From NCBI RefSeq assembly GCF_004307425.1, contig NZ_SEWZ01000003.1:248001-312000 (forward strand): DNA of 64,000 bases, given 5' to 3'. The first letter of the stretch is position 1. Each line of letters starts with the position of its first letter. This DNA comes from Aquirufa antheringensis (GTDB lineage Bacteria > Bacteroidota > Bacteroidia > Cytophagales > Spirosomataceae). The translations under genes and the position numbers were made by a program. This document shows positions 11,735 through 63,494 of this stretch, piece after piece. Under the pieces are notes generated by a model. That model was not told the DNA's origin, searched no databases, and saw only the letters and a list, made by a program, of their open reading frames with translations.

Positions 11735-11758
11735 TTTGTTAATCTGGTTTAGAGAAAT

Positions 11759-11786
11759 CAAAAATAGAAAAATTGGTTTATTTTTG
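11759..11786. promoter_or_regulatory. two opposed -7-like boxes between GMC operon and mutS
   Basis: CAAAAATA (11759-11766; TATTTTTG on the minus strand, toward the GMC gene) and TATTTTTG (11779-11786; toward mutS) form an 8-base inverted repeat. Both match TAnnTTTG. No TTG sits at the expected -33 distance on either side, so these are -7-only candidates in an AT-rich spacer. Confidence 0.33.
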
Positions 11787-11807
11787 TCATTAATAGAAAA
11801 GAAATAT

Positions 11808-14438
11808 TTGGCACGGAAAGCAGACAACGGAGAGGAGCCATTGAAAAAAGGGGAAACCCCACTTTCAAGGCAGTTTAATCAAATCAAGGCGAAATACCCA
11901 GGGGCCATTTTATTGTTCCGGGTGGGGGACTTTTACGAGACCTTTGGCCAAGATGCGGTGAAAGCCTCGAAAATTTTAGGGATTGTTTTGACGCGCCGAA
12001 ATAATGGCAACGCCGATGCTGAATTAGCGGGTTTTCCACACCATTCTTTGGACACCTATTTGCCTAAATTAGTCCGTGCAGGCGAACGCGTAGCCATTTG
12101 TGATCAATTAGAAGATCCGGCGACCGTTAAGGGAATTGTGAAACGGGGTGTTACGGAATTAGTGACCCCGGGTGTTTCATTTAACGATCAAGTACTTGAT
12201 AATAAGCGCAATAACTATGTGGCGGCTATTTCTGTAGAAGAAAAATCTTCGACCTACGGAATTGCCTTACTGGATATCTCGACGGGGGAGTTTATGTGCT
12301 CACAGGGGCCTTTGGCCTATATCCAGAAGTTAGTCCAAAGTTTTCTGCCGGCCGAGATCTTGTATCCGAAGAAACACCGTAATGCCTTCATCGATGCCTT
12401 TGGAGAGCAATTTCACAGCTTTACGATGGAGGAGTGGATTTTTACCCACGAATTCACGTACCCGCTTTTAACACAACATTTTAAGACCAAAAACCTGAAG
12501 GGCTTTGGGATTGAAAATAGTCCGCTAGGTATCATTTCTGCTGGAGTTATCTTACATTATTTAGCCGAAACAGAGCACCGCGCGATCGGTCATATTTCTT
12601 CGATTCAACGCATTGAGGAGGATAAATACGTTTGGTTAGATCGTTTTACCATCCGAAACCTAGAATTAATTCATCCGACTCAAGAGGGCGGAGTTCCCTT
12701 AATTGCACTCATCGACCAAACCTTGACGGCGATGGGTGGTCGTTTACTGCGTAAATGGCTGGTCTTGCCTTTGAAAGATTTAAAAACGATCGAACAACGT
12801 CAAGAAGGCGTGGCGGGTTTACTCGCCTCTTCGAGTTTATTGGATCAAGTTTCGGATTTATTGAAACCTATCGGGGATCTGGAGCGGATGATTTCCAAAG
12901 TCGCCGCAGGTCGCATCAATCCCCGCGAATTAAATGCCTTGAAAAAGGCCTTGCAACAGATTCCCGAGATTAAAACCTTGCTATCGGCTTCTACATCACC
13001 GAGCCTTTCAGGTCTTGCGAACAGCCTCGAAACTTGCGCGGAATTAGTAGATAAAATTGACACGATTTTGCGCGAAGATCCGCCCGTTTTAATGCACCAA
13101 GGAGGCATGATCAAAAGCGGTTATTTAGCGGAATTAGATGAATTGCACGGACTATCTAGCTCCGGCAAGAACTTCTTAGCCGATATCCAAAAGCGCGAAA
13201 TTGAACGCACCGGAATTACTTCTTTGAAGGTTTCTTATAACAAGGTTTTTGGCTATTATTTAGAAGTCACCAATGCGCACAAAGACCGCGTTCCTCCGGA
13301 GTGGATTCGCAAGCAGACTTTAGTCAATGCAGAGCGTTATATCACGGAAGAATTAAAGATTTACGAGGAGAAAATTCTGAGCGCGGAGGATAAAATATCC
13401 GTTATAGAATTCCGTCTATTCCAAGAATTAGTTCAAGATGCTTTGGGTTATATCACTCAGATTCAACAGAATGCGTTGGGTATAGCCACCCTCGATGTCT
13501 TAGCCTCCTTTGCTACGGTAGCGAAGAAGAATAACTATGTTCGTCCATTGTTAAACGAAACGGAGATTCTCGATATCAAAGGTGGTCGTCACCCAGTGAT
13601 TGAAAAACAGTTGCCAGCCGGCGAAAATTATGTCCCCAATGACATCTATTTAGACGATAAAACGCAGCAGATTATGATGATTACGGGTCCCAATATGGCT
13701 GGTAAATCGGCTCTATTGCGTCAAACAGCCTTGATCGTCTTGCTTGCTCAGATGGGATCCTATGTTCCGGCTGAATCCGCGACGTTGGGTTTAGTAGACA
13801 AGGTATTCACGCGCGTGGGTGCTTCAGATAACTTGTCCAAAGGAGAATCCACTTTCATGGTCGAGATGACGGAAACGGCAGCCATTTTGAATAATTTATC
13901 GTCTCGCTCCCTCGTTTTGTTGGACGAAATTGGTCGCGGAACCTCGACGTATGATGGCGTTTCGATGGCATGGGCGATCGCAGAACACTTGCACAATCAT
14001 CCTGCGTATAAGGCCAAAACCTTATTTGCCACCCACTACCACGAATTGAACGAATTAACGCAAGACTTCCCGCGCATTCAAAACTTCCACGTTTCGGTGA
14101 AAGAAGTGGGGAACAAAATCATCTTCTTGCGCAAATTATTGCCAGGCGGAAGTGCGCATAGTTTTGGTATCCACGTGGCTCAATTAGCCGGGATGCCTAC
14201 ATCTCTCGTTTTACGTGCACACGAAATTCTTCAAAACCTGGAGAAAGACCACGTGTTAGAAGACAACATCGATAAGCTGAAAGAGATGCCGAAGGCAAAT
14301 TACCAAATGAGTCTGTTTGGCGCAGAAATTCCGGAAGGCCTCCAAAAAATCGAGGATCAATTAAAGGAATTAGATGTGAATTCGTTGTCGCCTATTGAGG
14401 CGTTGTTGAAGTTGAATGAATTAAAGCGATTGCTTTAA
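11808..14438 (+). CDS. mutS: DNA mismatch repair ATPase MutS
   Basis: Recognises mispaired bases and recruits MutL. No ATG occurs in frame before the conserved region; TTG at 11808 gives MARKADNGEEPLKKGETPLSRQFN, 876 aa, which matches the usual start of Bacteroidota MutS. Residues about 40-46 carry the mismatch-contacting GDFYETFG (Phe-x-Glu), followed by LAGFPHHSLDTYLPKLV and RVAICDQLEDP. The clamp/lever region is intact, and the ATPase shows Walker A GPNMAGKS (about 626-633), ESTFMVEM, Walker B LVLLDEIGRGTSTYDG and ATHYHEL. Divergent from the GMC operon and convergent with nadK; the stop codon runs into a heptad-repeat island. Confidence 0.96.
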   Translation: MARKADNGEEPLKKGETPLSRQFNQIKAKYPGAILLFRVGDFYETFGQDAVKASKILGIVLTRRNNGNADAELAGFPHHSLDTYLPKLVRAGERVAICDQLEDPATVKGIVKRGVTELVTPGVSFNDQVLDNKRNNYVAAISVEEKSSTYGIALLDISTGEFMCSQGPLAYIQKLVQSFLPAEILYPKKHRNAFIDAFGEQFHSFTMEEWIFTHEFTYPLLTQHFKTKNLKGFGIENSPLGIISAGVILHYLAETEHRAIGHISSIQRIEEDKYVWLDRFTIRNLELIHPTQEGGVPLIALIDQTLTAMGGRLLRKWLVLPLKDLKTIEQRQEGVAGLLASSSLLDQVSDLLKPIGDLERMISKVAAGRINPRELNALKKALQQIPEIKTLLSASTSPSLSGLANSLETCAELVDKIDTILREDPPVLMHQGGMIKSGYLAELDELHGLSSSGKNFLADIQKREIERTGITSLKVSYNKVFGYYLEVTNAHKDRVPPEWIRKQTLVNAERYITEELKIYEEKILSAEDKISVIEFRLFQELVQDALGYITQIQQNALGIATLDVLASFATVAKKNNYVRPLLNETEILDIKGGRHPVIEKQLPAGENYVPNDIYLDDKTQQIMMITGPNMAGKSALLRQTALIVLLAQMGSYVPAESATLGLVDKVFTRVGASDNLSKGESTFMVEMTETAAILNNLSSRSLVLLDEIGRGTSTYDGVSMAWAIAEHLHNHPAYKAKTLFATHYHELNELTQDFPRIQNFHVSVKEVGNKIIFLRKLLPGGSAHSFGIHVAQLAGMPTSLVLRAHEILQNLEKDHVLEDNIDKLKEMPKANYQMSLFGAEIPEGLQKIEDQLKELDVNSLSPIEALLKLNELKRLL

Positions 14439-14530
14439 AGATTATAGATAAGAGAGTATAGATAATAGAGTAGAGAGTGTAGATTAGTATTTAATTATCT
14501 CTACTCTTTACTCTATAATCTCTAATCTTA
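14438..14530. repeat. heptad-repeat island A (mutS/nadK)
   Basis: The whole 92-base spacer reads as 13 consecutive 7-base words in one phase: AAGATTA TAGATAA, GAGAGTA TAGATAA, TAGAGTA GAGAGTG, TAGATTA GTATTTA, then the inverted series ATTATCT CTACTCT, TTACTCT ATAATCT, CTAATCT. The second half is roughly the reverse complement of the first, so the transcript of either strand can fold back on itself. It begins in the mutS stop codon and ends in the nadK stop codon. It may serve as a shared 3' end for the two convergent genes, but it has no T-run. Confidence 0.85.
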
Positions 14531-15409
14531 GTTCCGAACATCTAACCCCCAATTCAACTTACTCCTCAACGTCTGCAAGAAATCATCTCCCGGAATTTTG
14601 ATCAATTTCGCAGAGAAAGGAGCCTTTTTGACTTCGATTTTGAAGTGGCTGTCGATGACTTTTGAACGCGAATCCAGCGAGATAAGGAAGTTTTTGCTTC
14701 GAGAGCTTACCTCAAAAGTTAATACAGCTGAACTAGAAACAAGGAGCGGGCGCACATTTAAATTGTGCGGGCTCATAGGTGCAATGATGAATATATCGGA
14801 ACTTGGGATCACTAAGGGACCGCCCACCGCTAACGAGTAACCGGTGGATCCAGTGGCTGTGGATACAATTAATCCGTCTGCCCAATAGGAATTCAAGTAA
14901 TTGCCGTCTACGAAGGCTTTAATAGTAATCATGGAAGACGTATCTGTCTTCATGATGCCCACTTCGTTGAGTCCAAAGCCTTTTCCATCAAAAAAATCAA
15001 CCTCGGATTCTACGGAAACCAAACTTCTGTTTTCGATTCGGTAATTTCCTTGTAAAACGGTGTCTAATGCGGCGCTGATTTCTGGGGGTGACAGGGTGGC
15101 TAAAAAGCCCAATCGGCCCGTGTTGATCCCTAAAATGGGGATTTCCTTTGCGCCTATTTGAGTCAACGTTTCTAAGAGTGTTCCATCTCCGCCAATACTC
15201 CAAGCCATGTCCGCGGATTCTAAACCTTTCTCAGTGGAATAGCTGGGTACTTCTGCCACGGAGAAGCCGTGTTCGAGGAGGTGATTTTTGAAGAAATCGG
15301 AGAGGAGGGGCTGGCAGTTTTTAGCACAAATATCCGCCCACATTTTCTCCATTAAGGGCTTGGTTTCAGCCGAAAAGGTTTTTCCGTGAATGGCTAATTG
15401 TACACTCAT
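14528..15409 (-). CDS. nadK: NAD kinase
   Basis: Phosphorylates NAD to NADP (293 aa, usual length). Motifs: SIGGDGTLLETL (GGDGT, residues 73-77), ILGINTGRLGFLA, GLNEVGI (NE/D motif), DGLIVSTATGSTGYSLAVGGP and APMSPHNLNVRPLLV. It shares one base with the stop of the upstream CBS-domain gene, so it is the last gene of the operon alpha/beta hydrolase - CBS protein - nadK. Its stop codon lies in heptad island A. Confidence 0.96.
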   Translation of the reverse strand: MSVQLAIHGKTFSAETKPLMEKMWADICAKNCQPLLSDFFKNHLLEHGFSVAEVPSYSTEKGLESADMAWSIGGDGTLLETLTQIGAKEIPILGINTGRLGFLATLSPPEISAALDTVLQGNYRIENRSLVSVESEVDFFDGKGFGLNEVGIMKTDTSSMITIKAFVDGNYLNSYWADGLIVSTATGSTGYSLAVGGPLVIPSSDIFIIAPMSPHNLNVRPLLVSSSAVLTFEVSSRSKNFLISLDSRSKVIDSHFKIEVKKAPFSAKLIKIPGDDFLQTLRSKLNWGLDVRN

Positions 15410-40305: not shown

Positions 40306-40328
40306 TTTTTTTAAACACACGCAGCATT

Positions 40329-40356
40329 TTTGTGCTTTATTCTTTGTGCTTTAAAA
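40329..40356. repeat. heptad-repeat island C, left part
   Basis: TTTGTGC TTTATTC TTTGTGC TTTAAAA: four 7-base words after ACACGCAGCA. The same ACACGC(A/T)GCA leader precedes the right part, so the two look like copies of one module, each behind a GC-rich terminator. Confidence 0.65.
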
Positions 40357-40357
40357 A

Positions 40358-40384
40358 GAAAGGCGGCCCGCAGGGCCGCCTTTC
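40358..40384. terminator. second GC-rich terminator (GCA loop), bidirectional
   Basis: GAAAGGCGGCCC-GCA-GGGCCGCCTTTC, 12 pairs, with T-run on the right and A-run on the left (a T-run on the minus strand). Probably ends the convergent M13 peptidase gene as well. Confidence 0.85.
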
Positions 40385-40404
40385 TTTTTTTACACGCTGC
40401 AAAA

Positions 40405-40446
40405 TTTGAACTTTGCTCTTTGCTCTTTGAAATTTGAGAAAGCTTA
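40405..40446. repeat. heptad-repeat island C, right part
   Basis: TTTGAAC TTTGCTC, TTTGCTC TTTGAAA, TTTGAGA AAGCTTA: six words in one phase, the last ending with the stop codon of the M13 peptidase gene. TTTGAAC and TTTGCTC are the same words as in islands D and F. Confidence 0.75.
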
Positions 40447-42531: not shown

Positions 42532-44565
42532 ATGAAGAAATTGTTACTACTACTGTCCTGCTTTTTAGCATTTAGCCTCTCTGTCCACGCTCAAAAGCCC
42601 ATGTCACATGAGATCATGATCAAGCTGAAGAAAGTAGGAGCTCCTAAAATTTCACCAGATGGTCGCCACGTCATCTATTCCCGCATCGAAACGTCTTACA
42701 ATCTAGAAGAACAAACATCAGACCTTTGGATTGCTGCCACGGATGGTTCTTCACAGCCTAGAAAATTAACCAATTCAAAAGGCGGAGAAGACAATTACCA
42801 CTGGTCTGTCGCTTCAGATAAGATTTATTTCATTGCCAAACGCGATGGCGATGAAGCCCCTCAACTTTACGTTTTACCGTTAGCTGGCGGTGAGGCCCAA
42901 CGTTTAACCACACTTTCCACCGGAGTAAGTGATGTTAAATTCTCATCAGACGGCTCGCGCATTATTTTCTCCAGCCGCGTTTTCCCTACCGCTTTCACGG
43001 ATTCGGCAAGCAAGAAATTAGCGGAAGAAAAGAAGAAAATCAAGACCAAAGCACGTGTCTATCAATCGTTTCCCGTTCGTTATTGGGATTCTTGGTTAGA
43101 TGAAAAACAAGGGCACATCTTCACGATGGACCTAAAGTCAGGTTCAAAGCCCGTGAATTTAATGTCGAATCTAACTCTGGTGAATTCCCCAGGTTTCCGT
43201 TTAGGTTCTTATAACTTCAGTGCTGACGGTAAATCAGTGGTGTTTACGGCAACTACGGAATACAATACCACCGCTTATCAATCGGCAAAATCGAATATCT
43301 ATTCGGTGAGTTTGTCTGGTGGTAAAGAAACGGTTTTAGTAAATGATGAGACTTCTTATACTTCAGCGGAATTTACGGCAGATGGGAAATACCTCATTAC
43401 ATCGGGTTCTGCTATCGGCAATAAATTGTATTACCTGAATCGAATTTACCGCTTTGATGCGTCTTCTTTTTCTGCCAAAAAAGAGCTAGCGGCCACCCTC
43501 GATCGTCCCATCAACGATATGGAGATGGCTGGTTCCTCCATCTTTGCTAGTATTGAAGACCAAGGCGTGGATCGTATTGTTGAGATTTCAGTCGCTGATG
43601 GTTCAGTTAAGCCAGTTTTAGGCGCAGAAATTGGATCTTTTACCGGGTTAAGTTTATCGTCCAATCCCCGTATTTTTGCCTATCAATACCAAAATGTGGC
43701 GACTCCGCCAGAGGTTTGGGTCTCAGCAAATGGTTCATTGAAAGCCATTTCAAAAGCGAATGATGCGGTTTTAGCTGGGTTGGAATTACAAAAACCGGAG
43801 GTGATTTGGACTAAATCATCCAGAGGTAAAATGATTCGTTCGGTCGTTTTGAAACCAACCGGTTTTGATGCCTCTAAGAAATACCCTCTCTTCGTTTTAA
43901 TGCACGGCGGTCCAGCTAGTTCATTCAAAGATGTGTTTGGATACCGTTGGAACCCCTACATTTTAGGTTCGGCGGGCTACGTAATCGTGATGACCGACTA
44001 CACAGGATCTGTGGGATATGGTGAGAAATTCGCTCAAGATATTCAGTTTGACCCGTTCAAAGGTCCAGGGCAAGAAATCCAAGAAGCGGCGGCAGATGCC
44101 ATCAAACGCTTCTCGTTTATTGATGGAACCAAACAAGCCGCGGGTGGTGCTTCCTATGGAGGACACTTAGCCAATTGGATGCAGGCGACTACGTCTCATT
44201 ACAAATGCTTAATCTCACACGCGGGTTTAGTGAACTCGGAGGCGCAATGGGGAACATCGGATGTGATTTGGGGTAGAGAATTGATGAATGGGGGAGCACC
44301 TTGGGTACCTACTAAAACCTGGAAGGAACAAAACCCGATGCGTTTTGCTGCGAACTTCAAAACGCCTATGTTGTTAACCGTGGGCGAAAACGATTTCCGG
44401 GTTCCCATTAATAATACGCTAGAAAATTGGAGCATTCACCAACGTCTTCAAATCCCGAGCAAGTTAATCGTCTTCCCAGGTGAGAATCATTGGATCCTGA
44501 ATCCAGATAATTCGAAGTTCCACTATTCGGAAATACAAGGGTGGTTAGCGATGTATTTAAAATAA
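42532..44565 (+). CDS. S9-family peptidase (dipeptidyl-peptidase/acylaminoacyl type)
   Basis: 677 aa, signal peptide MKKLLLLLSCFLAFSLSVHAQ. N-terminal seven-bladed propeller (KKVGAPKISPDGRHVIYSR, VKFSSDGSRIIFSSR, YNFSADGKSVVFTA), then the peptidase domain (from about 440) with LFVLMHGGPASSF, the nucleophile elbow GGASYGGHLANW (Ser about 540), GENDFRVP (Asp) and GENHWI (His). It cleaves short peptides, probably dipeptides or acyl-amino acids. Divergent from the M13 gene. The stop codon runs into heptad island B. Confidence 0.92.
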   Translation: MKKLLLLLSCFLAFSLSVHAQKPMSHEIMIKLKKVGAPKISPDGRHVIYSRIETSYNLEEQTSDLWIAATDGSSQPRKLTNSKGGEDNYHWSVASDKIYFIAKRDGDEAPQLYVLPLAGGEAQRLTTLSTGVSDVKFSSDGSRIIFSSRVFPTAFTDSASKKLAEEKKKIKTKARVYQSFPVRYWDSWLDEKQGHIFTMDLKSGSKPVNLMSNLTLVNSPGFRLGSYNFSADGKSVVFTATTEYNTTAYQSAKSNIYSVSLSGGKETVLVNDETSYTSAEFTADGKYLITSGSAIGNKLYYLNRIYRFDASSFSAKKELAATLDRPINDMEMAGSSIFASIEDQGVDRIVEISVADGSVKPVLGAEIGSFTGLSLSSNPRIFAYQYQNVATPPEVWVSANGSLKAISKANDAVLAGLELQKPEVIWTKSSRGKMIRSVVLKPTGFDASKKYPLFVLMHGGPASSFKDVFGYRWNPYILGSAGYVIVMTDYTGSVGYGEKFAQDIQFDPFKGPGQEIQEAAADAIKRFSFIDGTKQAAGGASYGGHLANWMQATTSHYKCLISHAGLVNSEAQWGTSDVIWGRELMNGGAPWVPTKTWKEQNPMRFAANFKTPMLLTVGENDFRVPINNTLENWSIHQRLQIPSKLIVFPGENHWILNPDNSKFHYSEIQGWLAMYLK

Positions 44566-44570
44566 AAAAA

Positions 44571-44654
44571 AGTCGCTAGTCACTAGTCGCTAGTCTAAAG
44601 TGAATGAGTCTAAAATTAGTGACTCCCGACTATCGACTAGTGACTATCGACTAC
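44571..44654. repeat. heptad-repeat island B (S9/Gfo)
   Basis: Twelve words in one phase: AGTCGCT AGTCACT, AGTCGCT AGTCTAA, AGTGAAT GAGTCTA, AAATTAG TGACTCC, CGACTAT CGACTAG, TGACTAT CGACTAC. The right half is the approximate reverse complement of the left, so it can form a long imperfect hairpin. It lies between the convergent stop codons of the S9 peptidase and the Gfo/Idh gene and includes the latter's stop codon. Confidence 0.85.
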
Positions 44655-45721
44655 AGCTTCACCATCTCCCCCGTCCTCACCGACTCATCACACGCAAAAG
44701 CGATGCGTAAACTGTTAACGGCATCCTCCACGTGATCTGTTAGGTCGATATTTTCAGTTATGGCTTGTAGGAAATAGGCCTGCTCGCGATCGCAAAGACC
44801 TTGGTGATCCGGTTCATCCGTTAGGTTAACCCATTCGTCTTCTTTCGTGAATTCGTTTTTTGCATCGATGTCTGCGTGGTGTACACGCAGGGATTCTGTT
44901 TTCGTGTGTGATTCCACGTCATCGGATTTTCCCTCGCCGCCGGCATTTTTTGCGACGATGGAAACAGAACCTTTAGGCCCAAAAACATCTTTCACAAAAT
45001 ACGCATTCTGTGAGATCATGGGACCCCAGCCGGCCTCGTACCAACCTACGGAACCATCTTCAAAGTGAATTTGTAATTGACCATAATTATAGTTTCCAGC
45101 CGGAATATCTTCCGTCATTCGCGCGCCAATGGCCGAAACACGCAATGGTTTCGAGCGAGTCATTTGGCACATTACATCAATATAGTGTACCCCACAATCG
45201 ACGATAGGGCTTAGCGATTTCATCAAATTACGGTGCACATCCCACATGTAGCCATGGGATTGTTGATTTAAGTTCATCCGCATGACCAACGGTTTTCCCA
45301 TCGTCTTAGCGATTTCGATGAACTTGATCCAAGACGGATGGTGGCGTAAAATGTAGCCCACCACGAGTTTCTTGCCACTTTTTTGAACAGCTTCAGCCAC
45401 CCGAATAGCGCCAGCTAATGAATCGGCGATTGGTTTTTCTAAGAAAACGTGACAATCAGCTTCTAATGCGGCGATGGCATAGGCTTCGTGGGTATCTGGG
45501 TAAGTGGAGATACAAACCGCATCTGGTTTGGAGTCTGATAAGGCGGTGTAATAGTCGCTGTACAGCTTTTGGCCCCCACCTAAAGCTTCATTCAATGCTT
45601 CCTTGCTATTTCCCGGGGAAACGAGTCCGCAGATTTCAAATCCGGCTACGTTTTGGTAGGCTTTCGCATGAGAGGCTCCCATGTTTCCGCAACCCACCAC
45701 GAGCACGCGTATATTTTTCAT
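44651..45721 (-). CDS. Gfo/Idh/MocA-family oxidoreductase
   Basis: 356 aa. N-terminal Rossmann fold VLVVGCGNMGASHAKAY (GxGxxG), then the EKP motif in CHVFLEKPIADS (residues about 90-101), with the conserved DCGVHYIDV dehydratase-like region in the second half (residues about 175-183, typical active-site H). No signal peptide, so cytoplasmic. Substrate is a sugar or polyol derivative of unknown kind. It is convergent with the S9 peptidase, and divergent from the esterase-pectinesterase gene. Confidence 0.9.
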   Translation of the reverse strand: MKNIRVLVVGCGNMGASHAKAYQNVAGFEICGLVSPGNSKEALNEALGGGQKLYSDYYTALSDSKPDAVCISTYPDTHEAYAIAALEADCHVFLEKPIADSLAGAIRVAEAVQKSGKKLVVGYILRHHPSWIKFIEIAKTMGKPLVMRMNLNQQSHGYMWDVHRNLMKSLSPIVDCGVHYIDVMCQMTRSKPLRVSAIGARMTEDIPAGNYNYGQLQIHFEDGSVGWYEAGWGPMISQNAYFVKDVFGPKGSVSIVAKNAGGEGKSDDVESHTKTESLRVHHADIDAKNEFTKEDEWVNLTDEPDHQGLCDREQAYFLQAITENIDLTDHVEDAVNSLRIAFACDESVRTGEMVKL

Positions 45722-45789
45722 GTTAATCGATTTAGAATCGTAAATTAGGAAGAATGATTAGAATAATCGAAACTTCGCCTTTACAAATT

Positions 45790-47667
45790 ATGCGCATCCT
45801 CCTTATTTTCTTGCTTATGGGTTCCTTGAGTCTTCAGGCCCAAAACAAATCAGGCATCACGGGCAAGCCTGATACGTCCTTTACGAATTATGCTGCCTTG
45901 CAAATGGTAGTGAAACAGGATCCCACGATTCGCTTAGCCGAAGTTCAAAGTTCAAAGAGCAAAGTTCAAAGTTTTGTTTACAAGACAATAGATAAACGGA
46001 AACTCGTGGTGGATGAATATGCGGTCTCTTCCACTCGCAAGCTACCTACGCTCGTATTTTTCCATGGAGGTGGCTGGAGAACGGGGCATCGTTCACAGCA
46101 TATTCCTTTAGCAAAAGCCTTAGCAGATCGCGGATATCGGGTCTTTTTAGTCGAATACCGTTTATCCACGGAAGCTTTATACCCTGCTGCGATGCTGGAT
46201 GCACATGCTGCTTTGCAATGGGTTTCGAAACGTCAGAATGTGGGAGAAATCTATGTGGGAGGTTATTCAGCTGGGGGCCAAATGGCTGCGCTCCTAGGTT
46301 CCGTTCAAGATGAAAATACCTACGGCAAAGGAGTCAAATTAGCCGGGACCATTGATATCGATGGGATATTGGCTTTTATTCACCCGGAATCAGGAGAGGG
46401 AGATGATAGCAAACGTATCTCAGCAGCGACCCATTATTTTGGGTATAACAAGGTAGAGGGCGAGGCAATCTGGAAGGAGGCTTCCGCTTTGAGTCACGTG
46501 ACGAAAGGCGATCCGCCGGTATTATTCTTAAATTCGAGCGATGAGCGGATGCACGCAGGGCGTGACGATTTTAGGCAGAAAATGGCTGATTTTGGTATAC
46601 ATTCAGAGTATCACACGTTCGAAAATTCTCATCATACCTTCGTATTAATGAATCACTGGTTCAATCAGGTGGTGGACCGAATGGATCGTTTTATGCGCAA
46701 ACGTTTAGTGGTGGGAACCGATTTCAAGACGATACAATCCGCAGTAGATGTAGCTCGTCCTGGTCAGGAGATTTTCATTAAAAATGGCAATTACCAAGAA
46801 AAGGTATTCATCGATTCATTGAAACACCATTTGTCTTTTGTGGGCGAAAGCAGGGATGGCGTGGTGTTGCGGGAGACGATTGCGCGGGATATTTGGCGTT
46901 GTTCAAATCCAGATGATTATGGTGCTGGGGTGTTGAATATCAAAGGGCACGATTTGTCATTTCGGAATATGACTATTATGAATGAATATGGATTCAATGC
47001 AACAAAAGATATATCGATTCCTTGTTTGAACGAGGCTGGAAAGGAGACGACCACGACCGTCCAAAAATATGCCTTACCAAGGGAAAAGGGAGAGAAAGAA
47101 GGGGAGAAGATCGTCCGTGTAGATGGGCATCAATTTGCAGTTCGTACGATGCCCGGTGCCACCCGATTGTCTTTCGAGCATTGTACCATCCGATCAGGTG
47201 GCGGTGATACGGTAAGTCCTTGGGACGTGAATGCGGGAATGTATTATTTGAATGACTGTTTGATCGAAGGGGGAGTGGATTTGTATTGTCCGCGTGGCTA
47301 TGCCTTGGCTGAGAATTGCACTTTTGTCTGCCATAATACGAGTGCGGCGATTTGGCACGATGGTTCAGGAGAACAAGGGGCGAAGACCGTTTTAAAAAAT
47401 TGTCGTTTTATTGGGGATCCGGGGTATAAATTAGGTCGCTATCATAGGGAGGCACAATTTTATCTTTTGAACTGTTCTTTTGATAAAAATATGGCGGACG
47501 CACCTATCTACCAATCGGGCGATCGAGTGCTCAACTGGGGTCATCGCGTGTATTATGTGGATTGCCATAAGGATGGAGGCGACTTCGTTTGGCATAAAAA
47601 TAATACGTCGGTGAAAGCTAGTGACCTGACCTTCAAGACTATTTTTGGCAGAAATTGGAAAAAATAA
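45790..47667 (+). CDS. secreted esterase-pectinesterase fusion
   Basis: 625 aa from ATG 45790 (MRILLIFLLMGSLSLQAQ signal); the longer frame from 45754 puts 12 residues before it and is less likely. Residues about 60-290 are a BD-FAE-type carboxylesterase: LVFFHGGGWRTGHRSQHI (oxyanion HGGG), GGYSAGGQMAAL (nucleophile Ser), SSDERMHAG (Asp) and NSHHTF (His). Residues about 300-620 are a right-handed beta-helix of pectin methylesterase type: VVGTDFKTIQSAVDVA (start), GESRDGVVLRE, LSFRNMTIMNEYG, HGSGEQ-like WHDGSGEQGAKTVL. Together they could remove both acetyl and methyl esters from pectin. Near the mature N-terminus (residues about 51-62) lies an in-frame heptad repeat encoding VQSSKSKVQS. Confidence 0.85.
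   Translation: MRILLIFLLMGSLSLQAQNKSGITGKPDTSFTNYAALQMVVKQDPTIRLAEVQSSKSKVQSFVYKTIDKRKLVVDEYAVSSTRKLPTLVFFHGGGWRTGHRSQHIPLAKALADRGYRVFLVEYRLSTEALYPAAMLDAHAALQWVSKRQNVGEIYVGGYSAGGQMAALLGSVQDENTYGKGVKLAGTIDIDGILAFIHPESGEGDDSKRISAATHYFGYNKVEGEAIWKEASALSHVTKGDPPVLFLNSSDERMHAGRDDFRQKMADFGIHSEYHTFENSHHTFVLMNHWFNQVVDRMDRFMRKRLVVGTDFKTIQSAVDVARPGQEIFIKNGNYQEKVFIDSLKHHLSFVGESRDGVVLRETIARDIWRCSNPDDYGAGVLNIKGHDLSFRNMTIMNEYGFNATKDISIPCLNEAGKETTTTVQKYALPREKGEKEGEKIVRVDGHQFAVRTMPGATRLSFEHCTIRSGGGDTVSPWDVNAGMYYLNDCLIEGGVDLYCPRGYALAENCTFVCHNTSAAIWHDGSGEQGAKTVLKNCRFIGDPGYKLGRYHREAQFYLLNCSFDKNMADAPIYQSGDRVLNWGHRVYYVDCHKDGGDFVWHKNNTSVKASDLTFKTIFGRNWKK
45941..45975 (+). repeat. heptad-repeat island G, inside coding sequence
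   Basis: AAGTTCA AAGTTCA, AAGAGCA AAGTTCA, AAGTTTT: five 7-base words, the first 34 bases identical to 58194-58227 in island D. Inside the open reading frame they encode VQSSKSKVQS and leave the frame intact. Confidence 0.85.
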
Positions 47668-57491: not shown

Positions 57492-57558
57492 AGTTAATTT
57501 ACAGGTATTTCTGAAAATGTCCTTCGAAATATTTTCGCGAAATACCTGTAAATTAGCT
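57492..57558. repeat. long inverted repeat after arsC
   Basis: A perfect 17-base inverted repeat: TAATTTACAGGTATTTC (57495-57511) and GAAATACCTGTAAATTA (57539-57555). Inside, GAAAAT (57513-57518) pairs with ATTTTC (57531-57536), and the outer arms gain three more pairs with a T-G wobble. The whole can fold as a 67-base hairpin with a 12-base loop. It starts 10 bases after the arsC stop and has no T-run, so it is not a simple intrinsic terminator. It may be a small mobile-element remnant or a 3' end structure. Confidence 0.85.
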
Positions 57559-57619: not shown

Positions 57620-57752
57620 AGTCACTATTCGATAGTCCGGAGAAAATGAGATTAGAGATTATAGAGTCTAGATTGAAAAAATTCACCATTCACCATTTAC
57701 CATTCACCATTTACCATTCACCATTTACCATTCTCTCTACTCTATAATCTTA
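57620..57752. repeat. heptad-repeat island E (arsC/SnoaL)
   Basis: Nineteen words in one phase: AGTCACT ATTCGAT, AGTCCGG AGAAAAT, GAGATTA GAGATTA, TAGAGTC TAGATTG, AAAAAAT TCACCAT, TCACCAT TTACCAT, TCACCAT TTACCAT, TCACCAT TTACCAT, TCTCTCT ACTCTAT, AATCTTA. It joins the AGTCACT word of island B, the GAGATTA words of island A and a TYACCAT block of its own, all in register. The last word ends in the SnoaL-like stop codon. Confidence 0.88.
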
Positions 57753-58175
57753 CGAGGTGTGATCCCTCACCACCAGCCACTTCCCCTTTACCTTCTTCAT
57801 CAACAACGTAAAATAGCCACCCACATCACCCACGGTTGGTCTTGTCAAATGCCAGCGGCCTAATACCCAAGCCGTTTTTCCTGCTGTAATATCTACTTCT
57901 TGAATGTCAAAATCTAACGTGCCCATCGTCTCGCGATTGGGATATGATTTTAAATAGCGTTTCAACGTCGCCTCCCAGCCTGAAACGACGCCAGACTTTC
58001 CAATGAACTTTAGATTAGGGGATTTTTCGTAGTATTCCATAAAGCCCTCAATATCGCCCTTGTTCCATAGTTTAATCTGAGTTTGCAGGACAGACTTGAT
58101 TTCGTTTTCGTCTTTATTTGTTTGAGCGAAAAGAAGGGATGGGATGAAGAGGAGGAGGTAGAGGAGTGTTTTCAT
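57750..58175 (-). CDS. SnoaL/NTF2-like protein, exported
   Basis: 141 aa, signal peptide MKTLLYLLLFIPSLLFAQ. NTF2-like cone: IKSVLQTQIKLWNKGDIEGFMEYYEKSP (the usual DIEGF-x-YY start), WEATLKRYLKSYP, GTLDFDIQEVDI, GKTAWVLGRWHLTRP and FTLLMKKVKGKWLVVRDHTS. It fits the DUF4440/SnoaL-like group, which has no single function; the fold can bind a small ligand. It is in the spacer between two heptad islands, and both its stop and its upstream region are next to them. Signal peptide indicates the periplasm. Confidence 0.85.
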   Translation of the reverse strand: MKTLLYLLLFIPSLLFAQTNKDENEIKSVLQTQIKLWNKGDIEGFMEYYEKSPNLKFIGKSGVVSGWEATLKRYLKSYPNRETMGTLDFDIQEVDITAGKTAWVLGRWHLTRPTVGDVGGYFTLLMKKVKGKWLVVRDHTS

Positions 58176-58191
58176 ATTGTAAGTTTATTTA

Positions 58192-58331
58192 CAAAGTTCA
58201 AAGTTCAAAGAGCAAAGTTCAAAGTTTGAATCAGTTTTTCTGAGTTTATCCCTGAAAGGGATTCCATCTTTGAACTTTGAACTTTGCTCTTTGTGATTTT
58301 CTGTCTACTGGCCACTGTCCACTGACTACTG
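58192..58331. repeat. heptad-repeat island D (SnoaL / sugar dehydrogenase)
   Basis: Twenty words in one phase over 140 bases: CAAAGTT CAAAGTT, CAAAGAG CAAAGTT, CAAAGTT; then six less regular words containing the hairpin ATCCC-TGAAA-GGGAT (58248-58262); then TTTGAAC TTTGAAC, TTTGCTC TTTGTGA, TTTTCTG TCTACTG, GCCACTG TCCACTG, ACTACTG. A 21-base inverted repeat pairs 58206-58226 with the TTTGAAC arm. It is between divergent genes, so it is not a terminator for either. Confidence 0.88.
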
Positions 58332-58416
58332 ATTTTGGCATTTCGTCTCATTTTCCACCTAACAATTTTTAAAATCCGATTATTGTATCATTTTTGTAGA
58401 ATAATAAATTAGACCT

Positions 58417-62608: not shown

Positions 62609-63373
62609 ATGAAAAACACGTTTGATTTAACAGGAAAAATAGCGCTAGTCACGGGTTGTAAGCGAGGAATCGGAATGGCGATGGCGCTAGGTTTAGCCGA
62701 GGCAGGAGCAGATATTATTGGGGTTTCGGCTAATTTAGAATTGTCGGGTTCTCAGGTTTCCAAAGCGGTAGAAGCTTTAGGTCGCAAATTCAAAGCTTAC
62801 CAAGCTGACTTCTCAAATCGCGATTCAATGTATGCTTTCATCAAACAGTTGAAAGCTGACTATCCTCGTATCGATATTTTAGTGAACAACGCAGGAACCA
62901 TTTTGCGTAATCCGGCAGCGGAACATTCGGATGAGTTTTGGGATGAGGTTTTAGAAGTCAATCTGTCATCTCAGTTTATTTTGAGCCGCGAAATCGGTGC
63001 TCGGATGATTACTGAAGGCAGTGGAAAAATTATTTTTACGGCTTCTCTATTAAGCTTTCAAGGGGGCATCAATGTGCCGGGTTATGCTGCCAGTAAAGGT
63101 GGTATTGCTCGTTTAACGATGGCTTTAGCTAACGAATGGGCAGGGAAAGGAGTAAATGTGAACGCGATTGCTCCAGGGTATATTTCCACCGATAATACGA
63201 CGGCATTGCGCGAAGATAAAGAGCGCAGCGCTTCTATTTTAGGACGAATTCCGGCGGGAAGATGGGGAGAACCAGAAGACTTTAAGGGTCCGGTGGTGTT
63301 CTTAGCCTCTGAAGCCTCTAACTATGTTCACGGAACCATTTTGACCGTCGATGGCGGCTGGATGGGCCGGTAA
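62609..63373 (+). CDS. kduD: 2-dehydro-3-deoxy-D-gluconate 5-dehydrogenase (KduD-like)
   Basis: 254 aa, SDR fold: LVTGCKRGIGMAMALGLAEAG (TGxxxGIG), NNAGTILRNPAAEHSDEFWD, the catalytic Ser (TASLLSFQG), and PGYAASKGGIARLTMALANE (YxxxK). The C-terminal block APGYISTDNTTALREDKERS with RIPAGRWGEPEDF is characteristic of KduD, which oxidises 2,5-diketo-3-deoxygluconate in pectin breakdown. It lies 2 bases after the GH105 gene and before a GH88 gene. No kduI is in the window. Confidence 0.9.
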   Translation: MKNTFDLTGKIALVTGCKRGIGMAMALGLAEAGADIIGVSANLELSGSQVSKAVEALGRKFKAYQADFSNRDSMYAFIKQLKADYPRIDILVNNAGTILRNPAAEHSDEFWDEVLEVNLSSQFILSREIGARMITEGSGKIIFTASLLSFQGGINVPGYAASKGGIARLTMALANEWAGKGVNVNAIAPGYISTDNTTALREDKERSASILGRIPAGRWGEPEDFKGPVVFLASEASNYVHGTILTVDGGWMGR

Positions 63374-63380
63374 CAAATTT

Positions 63381-63494
63381 CAAAGACCAAAGAGCAAAGT
63401 TCAAAGTTCAGAATTTTCCTATTTGCTCTTTGAACTTTGCTCTTTGAATAGTAGCCTCTGAACTTTGAACTTTGGTCTTTTAACTTTGAAAAAA
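63381..63494. repeat. heptad-repeat island F (kduD/GH88)
   Basis: Left arm CAAAGAC CAAAGAG, CAAAGTT CAAAGTT (63381-63408); right arm in one phase from 63422: TTTGCTC TTTGAAC, TTTGCTC TTTGAAT, AGTAGCC TCTGAAC, TTTGAAC TTTGGTC, TTTTAAC TTTGAAA. The right arm is the reverse complement of the left with one heptad missing. TAACTTTG (63481-63488) inside it is an exact TAnnTTTG promoter box 7 bases before the GH88 ATG. Confidence 0.85.

Follow-up and report, generated by a model that had tools for sequence, protein, structure and literature searches.

Islands of tandem 7-base words occupy the same gene spacers in related species of one genus, while the words from which they are built are replaced by others. 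Site and sequence come apart in this feature: the rule of place and shape is separable from the rule of sequence. We regard the islands as genuine and non-random. They belong to a type of repeat already known, and the way in which they change is unusual; new are the several words per genome, the conserved sites and the word swapping. This main result comes from the comparison of species and lies outside the coordinates covered by the preliminary description of this DNA.

The window is the whole stretch of 64,000 nucleotides that was analysed, from Aquirufa antheringensis (G000:C3:248001-312000; the G000 genome has 2.50 Mb in 11 contigs), and the genus sample consisted of 38 genomes. The closest named relatives (L061-L067) are 'Cytophagaceae bacterium' MAGs with a freshwater habitat, as judged from their names. 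Lag matching was scanned over 452 kb of G000 (the window and a further 388 kb) and 500 kb of G011, and genes were simple longest-ORF calls without curation. Coordinates of arms and blocks refer to the + strand of the window.

The intergenic DNA of both samples was raised at lag 7 and its multiples only. In G000, 32 segments were found at lag 7 and 26, 14 and 7 at lags 14, 21 and 28, compared with 0-3 at those lags between 4 and 30 that are not multiples of 7; G011 had 22 lag-7 segments. Coding DNA had no raised lag-7 matching, with 8 (G000) and 5 (G011) lag-7 segments inside called ORFs. The 7-base periodicity proposed in the preliminary description is therefore real and stands above that at other lags, its count of seven islands in 64 kb is also reached by our own cut, and words are common to several islands, as it had claimed. 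The tandem 7-base unit, dispersed and intergenic, is that of the STRR-like and Xanthomonas/Nostoc-type heptameric repeats.

Almost all arrays (128 of 131, from ten genomes) fit six word families, which read on the pyrimidine strand are CTTTGnn, CTTTATG/CTTTGTG, TCTMTAM, TTYACCA, GACTnnn (the reverse of AGTC) and ACTGnnn (the reverse of CAGT); the six patterns were drawn up after the arrays had been read. Each family has near-fixed and variable unit positions, and this conserved core with few variable positions, likewise known from heptameric repeats, is partly due to construction, as the arrays were phased on the core. Of the well-anchored indels, 26 of 33 inside islands had a length divisible by 7, and outside islands this held for 1 of 19, with seven loci in each group. 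Collapsed by locus and length, the numbers are 14/20 and 1/18; with the strictest anchoring they are 9/9 and 1/4, and with loose anchoring 42/115 and 11/103, many of the inside cases then being forced alignments of unlike words. Slippage by 7 is thus also at work, and the preliminary expectation that strains differ in length by multiples of 7 was largely borne out.

The conservation of sites is most evident between G000 and G011. Of 298 spacers common to both genomes, 17 carry islands in G000 and 16 in G011, and 15 of these are the same (p 3e-22); limited to the 115 spacers of at least 40 bp in both, the association remains (p 9e-16). The mean probability of word agreement at the 15 orthologous loci was 0.22, no different from unrelated loci, for which it was 0.25 within one genome and 0.18 across different genomes; over all 190 orthologous pairs of ten genomes it was 0.29, a little above unrelated loci. 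Nine of the 15 loci had no dominant word in common, four had some and two agreed fully. The score takes the dominant word per array and understates likeness at least at C3:178728, which scored 0, yet has CTTTATT-type words visible in both genomes. Median identity between G000 and G011 was 48% for island spacers (n=18) and 93% for plain spacers (n=93; p 1.6e-10). At C3:189448, CTTTG and TCTMTAM versions occur in spacers of near-constant length (210-214 bp, seven genomes), and C3:194487 has three alleles (TTYACCA, CTTTG, TCTMTAM) among ten genomes.

A particular structure was seen at C3:194487: in the orthologues of G025, G029, G011, G023 and G037, the 3' end of the neighbouring gene forms a hairpin with an inverted copy of itself, which suggests inverted duplication of gene ends. 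The inverted copy was not seen in G000, G008, G027, G013 and G017.

Words also differ between G025 and G008, which are sisters in the tree and have blastn identities of 97.4% (7,985 bp) and 93.4% (3,756 bp) in the stretch compared. Genome completeness is 81% for G025 and 85% for G008. Queries with 22 islands of G008 yielded 10 resolved counterparts in G025, and three further spacers brought the number to 13 (of the 12 remaining queries, 11 had no unique match and one, the first island of L210, lies at a contig end). Flank identities over these 13 spacers were 85-99%. The main word had changed at five (194487, L215, L216, L218, L219), the word was kept with a changed structure or a gained block at another five (190801, L207, L208, L213, L222), and little had changed at three (189448, the first island of L209 and the second of L210). 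At C3:194487, one sister has a CTTTG hairpin and the other a TTYACCA hairpin, between flanks of ~110 bases on each side that are about 96-98% identical up to the island. At L215 and L216 the swap stays within a pair of related families, CTTTGnn and CTTTATG, with both arms changed together and, at L216, the GCGGC stem between the arms kept in both versions. The change at L219 (CAGT versus AGTC) is anchored on one flank only, and L222 of G025 has an extra arm-terminator-arm cassette that is absent from G008.

Island E (57620-57752), on which the preliminary description was centred, is 133 bp long. Within it, 80 of 126 positions match at lag 7, in comparison to 27-38 at lags 3-21 other than 7, 14 and 21, and all three word families named previously are present: an AGTC-word block (AGTCACT ATTCGAT AGTCCGG; 57620-57640), a purine-rich arm (GAGATTA GAGATTA TAGAGTC TAGATTG, including AGATTATAGAGT; 57648-57675) and a TTYACCA array of 7.6 copies according to TRF (57681-57733), whose copy number varies among relatives. 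These are followed by a pyrimidine-rich arm, CTCTCTACTCTATAATC (57734-57750), which pairs with 57648-57675: AGATTATAGAGT near 57650 is the inverted counterpart of ACTCTATAATCT near 57738. The inverted-repeat make-up of many islands had been overlooked. The reading of E as 19 consecutive heptads without a phase slip does not hold, since neighbouring heptads at the word changes match at 1-3 of 7 positions, which is chance: 2 at AGTCCGG/AGAAAAT, 1 at AGAAAAT/GAGATTA, 2 at TAGATTG/AAAAAAT and 3 each at AAAAAAT/TCACCAT and TTACCAT/TCTCTCT. The phase at these junctions is therefore set only by the rotation chosen for each word, and we reject the argument from an unbroken register across words. Folded as a whole (57640-57755, minus strand), island E is no better than shuffles (z -0.79). 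Five outgroup genomes (L046-L050) have an intergenic gap of 4 bp at E; in the nine closest genomes, G000 included, the gap measures 129-296 bp and is filled with differing palindromes and arrays.

The same spacer has a palindrome with the recurrent core GAAAATGTCCTTCGAAATATTTTC and arms peculiar to the site (57493-57558), which is also present in G029, G011, G017, G025 and G013. It belongs to a second palindrome family with a core of about GAAAATGTCCTTCGAAATATTTTC or GAAATYGTGCTNCGCAATNATTTC, found in the window at 57493-57558, in G000 at C3:120361, 150159, 190813 and 305514 and in G011; the complementary arms at the four G000 sites are 14-21 bp long and differ by site. Every match of this family in the G000 and G011 samples is intergenic.

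The islands of the window lie at about 14439-14527, 40329-40437, 44571-44653, 45941-45973, E, 58192-58332 and 63374-63490. Six stretches were folded as RNA, and in four of them the heptads form a strong hairpin (z between -4.87 and -8.04); island E is not among these four. Island A consists of a purine-rich arm (AGATTATAGATAAG...; 14439-14483) and a pyrimidine-rich arm (TCTCTACTCTTTACTC...; 14498-14527) and folds with z -4.87 (14435-14535); a MutS gene with five Pfam domains (11736-14438) ends directly at this island. The strongest hairpin (44565-44660, z -8.04) has a 5' arm of AGTC words (44571-44595) and a 3' arm of GACT words (44628-44653), the site of the latter being occupied by CAGT words in G011 and G017. 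The stretch 58185-58332 (z -5.53) has a purine-rich AAAGTTC/AAAGAGC arm (58192-58226), a pyrimidine-rich CTTTGAA/CTTTGCT arm (58268-58293) and a CCACTGT/CTACTGA block (58301-58332), and at 63374-63490 (z -6.29) a purine-rich arm of AAAGACC/AAAGAGC/AAAGTTC (63374-63415) stands before pyrimidine-rich CTTTGCT/CTTTGAA/CTTTGGT blocks (63422-63490). This last site, at window position 63373, has CTTTG words in G000, G029, G017 and G027, TCTMTAM words in G011, G037 and G023 and CTTTATG words in G013. In the remaining islands, a CTTTGTG/CTTTATT block (40329-40352) stands beside a GC-rich terminator-like hairpin, and it is this hairpin and not the heptads that gives 40325-40430 its z of -4.97; a CTTTGAA/CTTTGCT block (40402-40437) is a single arm, replaced by TCTMTAM words in G011 and G013. 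The AAAGTTC/AAAGAGC block at 45941-45973 lies inside a longest ORF call (45754-47667), the true start of which may be downstream of the called one. An Rfam scan of the window gave no match at gathering score.

The arms have a fixed order. Among 50 pairs of adjacent arrays within 160 bp of each other in ten genomes, which are not independent, 35 were purine-then-pyrimidine, 8 pyrimidine-pyrimidine, 7 purine-purine and none pyrimidine-then-purine; 24 of the 35 have the same word in both arms, and 10 of the 15 loci have the purine-to-pyrimidine arrangement. The known heptameric repeats likewise form inverted pairs in convergent orientation. Arm complementarity did not exceed that of the same heptads shuffled in any of 23 cases at p<0.05, with 17 of the 23 above the mean. 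Shuffled heptads thus pair about as well, which argues against tight selection for pairing and against the templating of one arm on the other; such quasi-palindrome correction is not supported as the principal cause. Placement favours convergent genes: islands are present in 11 of 26 convergent and 9 of 115 other spacers of at least 40 bp in G000 (p 6e-5) and in 12 of 27 and 9 of 132 in G011 (p 6e-6). For 40 of 59 arrays in G000 and G011 the nearest gene end is a 3' end; 32 of these 40 arrays have the purine-rich word on the sense strand, compared with 6 of the 19 that are nearest to a 5' end. The heptad stems that we read are not G+C-rich; at some sites the arms flank or adjoin a G+C-rich hairpin of its own with a T run. 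A GC hairpin, GGAATCCCCTGCGGGGATGA, occurs 10 times with at most 4 mismatches in G000 C3:1-452000, nine times intergenically and in some cases between heptad arms.

The explanation that we prefer, and whose being right or wrong we judge about equally probable, is that these are heptad hairpin islands of the STRR/Xanthomonas kind that change by slippage of 7, by copying of cassettes between islands and by exchange between species, at sites that are kept by a gene-end hairpin. Arrays would lengthen and shorten through slippage of 7; whole arms or cassettes would pass from island to island by ectopic conversion or end-joining and would also be exchanged between species, and each genome would thereby drift to its own word set. 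A hairpin at the end of a gene would be useful or tolerated, above all between convergent genes, and its site would be retained for that reason; it may limit read-through or mark RNA 3' ends, a function that we infer only. Of the models considered, copying has the best support, short of proof. G000 contains a composite block of 256 bp shared at 91% between C3:4, which is at a contig start, and C1:4816, and a block of several modules of 125 bp shared at 83% between C3:402074 and C1:350514, in a comparison that covered the C3 sample and seven C1 loci. These shared blocks, among which no donor-recipient event was caught, suggest copying between loci. The preliminary description had argued that a single heptad-making or heptad-copying process is at work and that the loci did not slip independently. 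Its argument from phase fails at the word junctions, but its conclusion gains support from other evidence: the six families that cover 128 of the 131 arrays, composite blocks at unrelated loci and word replacement between sister genomes. Against the preferred explanation stand the seven island indels (of 33) whose length is not divisible by 7, the true GC terminators that accompany some islands, the pairing of arms no better than that of shuffled heptads, the poor folding of island E as a whole and the word agreement of 0.29 over all orthologous pairs. The absence of the palindrome-cutting nuclease SbcD may permit palindromes: the SbcD model matched in none of the 38 genus genomes and in 13 of 14 controls. 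As it is unmatched also in island-free relatives, it cannot explain the difference in islands, and we reject SbcD loss as a sufficient cause.

A trans-acting rewriting of the whole genome, with site, arm order and 7-base step fixed and the word free, would account for the different lexicons of relatives at the same sites, but we consider it unlikely. We think similarly of ordinary tandem repeats, each array arising alone by polymerase slippage that favours 7 bases and then drifting. Indels are indeed mostly whole heptads, 7 is the only unit size and a heptamer excess has been described in many bacteria (PMC4692102); however, independent arrays should not draw on six families, and neither the single arm order (35 to 0) nor the multi-word blocks common to several loci nor the differing words at shared sites of close relatives would be expected. 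Selection for gene-end hairpins as bidirectional terminators or RNA 3'-end protectors, with a free stem sequence and neutral turnover of words, is somewhat unlikely as the main explanation: enrichment in convergent spacers, the fixed purine-to-pyrimidine order, strong stems and purine-rich sense-strand words beside gene 3' ends (32 versus 8 in G000 and G011) are in its favour, but pairing is not significantly better than for shuffled heptads, single arms and divergent-spacer islands occur, canonical terminators stand beside some islands, and it explains the sites, not the unit of 7 or the small lexicon.

The alleles of C3:194487 recur across clades, each in two or three of them and with shared loop details, and between-species exchange may therefore account for part of the swapping. 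As a full account, in which homologous recombination over short tracts would have reshuffled old alleles between freshwater relatives, it is quite improbable. G011 has a different nearest relative in each of the trees built from two 20 kb regions (G000 in one, G029 in the other), as recombination would cause, but the origin of the alleles is left unexplained, the ~110-base flanks of C3:194487 stay about 96-98% identical between G025 and G008, and word counts differ genome-wide among relatives. Mobilisation of REP-like palindromes by a Y1 (RAYT) transposase would fit the many dispersed intergenic copies and is hardly credible: Y1_Tnp (PF01797) was found in none of the 18 island-bearing genomes, several of which are incomplete, and in 12 of the 20 others, and there is no fixed element consensus. 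The islands resemble REP/RAYT systems in having many short palindromes between genes and differ from them in the tandem heptad make-up, the absence of a fixed consensus and the Y1 transposase that was not found; we reject this identity.

Heptameric intergenic repeats are known from several phyla, with a mechanism that is so far undemonstrated. The cyanobacterial STRRs, proposed previously as the analogue, are a fair comparison, as they are also heptanucleotide tandem repeats (as cited in PMC4692102), likened here by description, but closer published cases exist. Xanthomonas GGGAATC (GGGANTN) and Nostoc GGGGAYT are single-word intergenic heptameric repeats of unknown function; many form convergent inverted pairs, with 70 cases and 186 arrays in one species, and two species mostly share the gene spacers that they occupy, with length and sequence changed (PMC4692102, which also cites earlier work for the idea of a polymerase footprint and the heptamer excess). 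Our islands are like these repeats in their conserved core with free positions and in being dispersed, intergenic and inverted in pairs. They are unlike them in having six families and family replacement at the same site instead of one G-rich, quadruplex-forming word: the six cores lack G runs, and GGG occurs only in the variant GACTCCC/AGTCGGG. Beggiatoaceae, cyanobacteria and five Bacteroidetes have TAACTGA direct repeats, which are intergenic, in some genomes mixed with other heptamers, and differ between two close Cyanothece strains by indels mostly in 7-nt increments (PMC4679880). Our CAGTTAT-type words are the reverse complement of that unit. In its main genome, however, the TAACTGA repeat is placed mostly just upstream of start codons (PMC4679880), a position not favoured by our islands, which prefer convergent spacers, are mostly nearer to gene 3' ends and are often inverted. 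For word-for-word replacement of heptads at conserved sites we found no prior report among titles and abstracts of the open-licence literature.

The lexicon differs between genomes of the genus, with the caveats that pattern matches overlap along arrays, so that a few long arrays weigh heavily, and that counts across genomes are not independent of descent. CTTTG arrays gave 6-124 matches in the ten genomes around G000 (124 in G000, 6 in G011) and 0-1 elsewhere among the 38. AGTC arrays are present in 17 genomes and CAGT arrays in 18; together they mark 18 island-bearing genomes, and the other 20 have neither. AGTC outnumbers CAGT in G000 (220:14) and G025 (58:12), and the reverse holds in G011 (1:77) and in G008 (1:138), the sister of G025. 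Sister-clade counts are less clean than those of G000, as the reversed control pattern also matches there (AGTC in G002 up to 42; 0 in G000), and in the sister-clade genome G014 none of five segments fit the six families, other words being used. In four island-poor genomes, 80 kb contained a single segment each. Since a single genus offers 18 genomes with islands, 20 that are island-poor and the close pair G025/G008, the origin of the 7-base step can be tested by comparison of genomes and of strains.

Beyond the genus, 36 named loci that had not been chosen for repeats (L068-L103; 585,954 bases) gave 8 segments at lag 7, fewer than at lag 8 (9) or lag 15 (12); heptads as a general habit of Bacteroidota are thus unsupported. 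CTTTG arrays were found in 16 of 291 genomes of the order, the own genome included, and heptad arrays are also present in six genomes of other genera, in regions that were chosen for CTTTG and therefore give no rate; their words coincide in part with ours, and some of the arrays are inverted with the same arm order. In the order-wide search, the control pattern (repeated GTTTCNN) itself had 415 matches in G177 and 41 in G315; other genera may have heptad words of their own.
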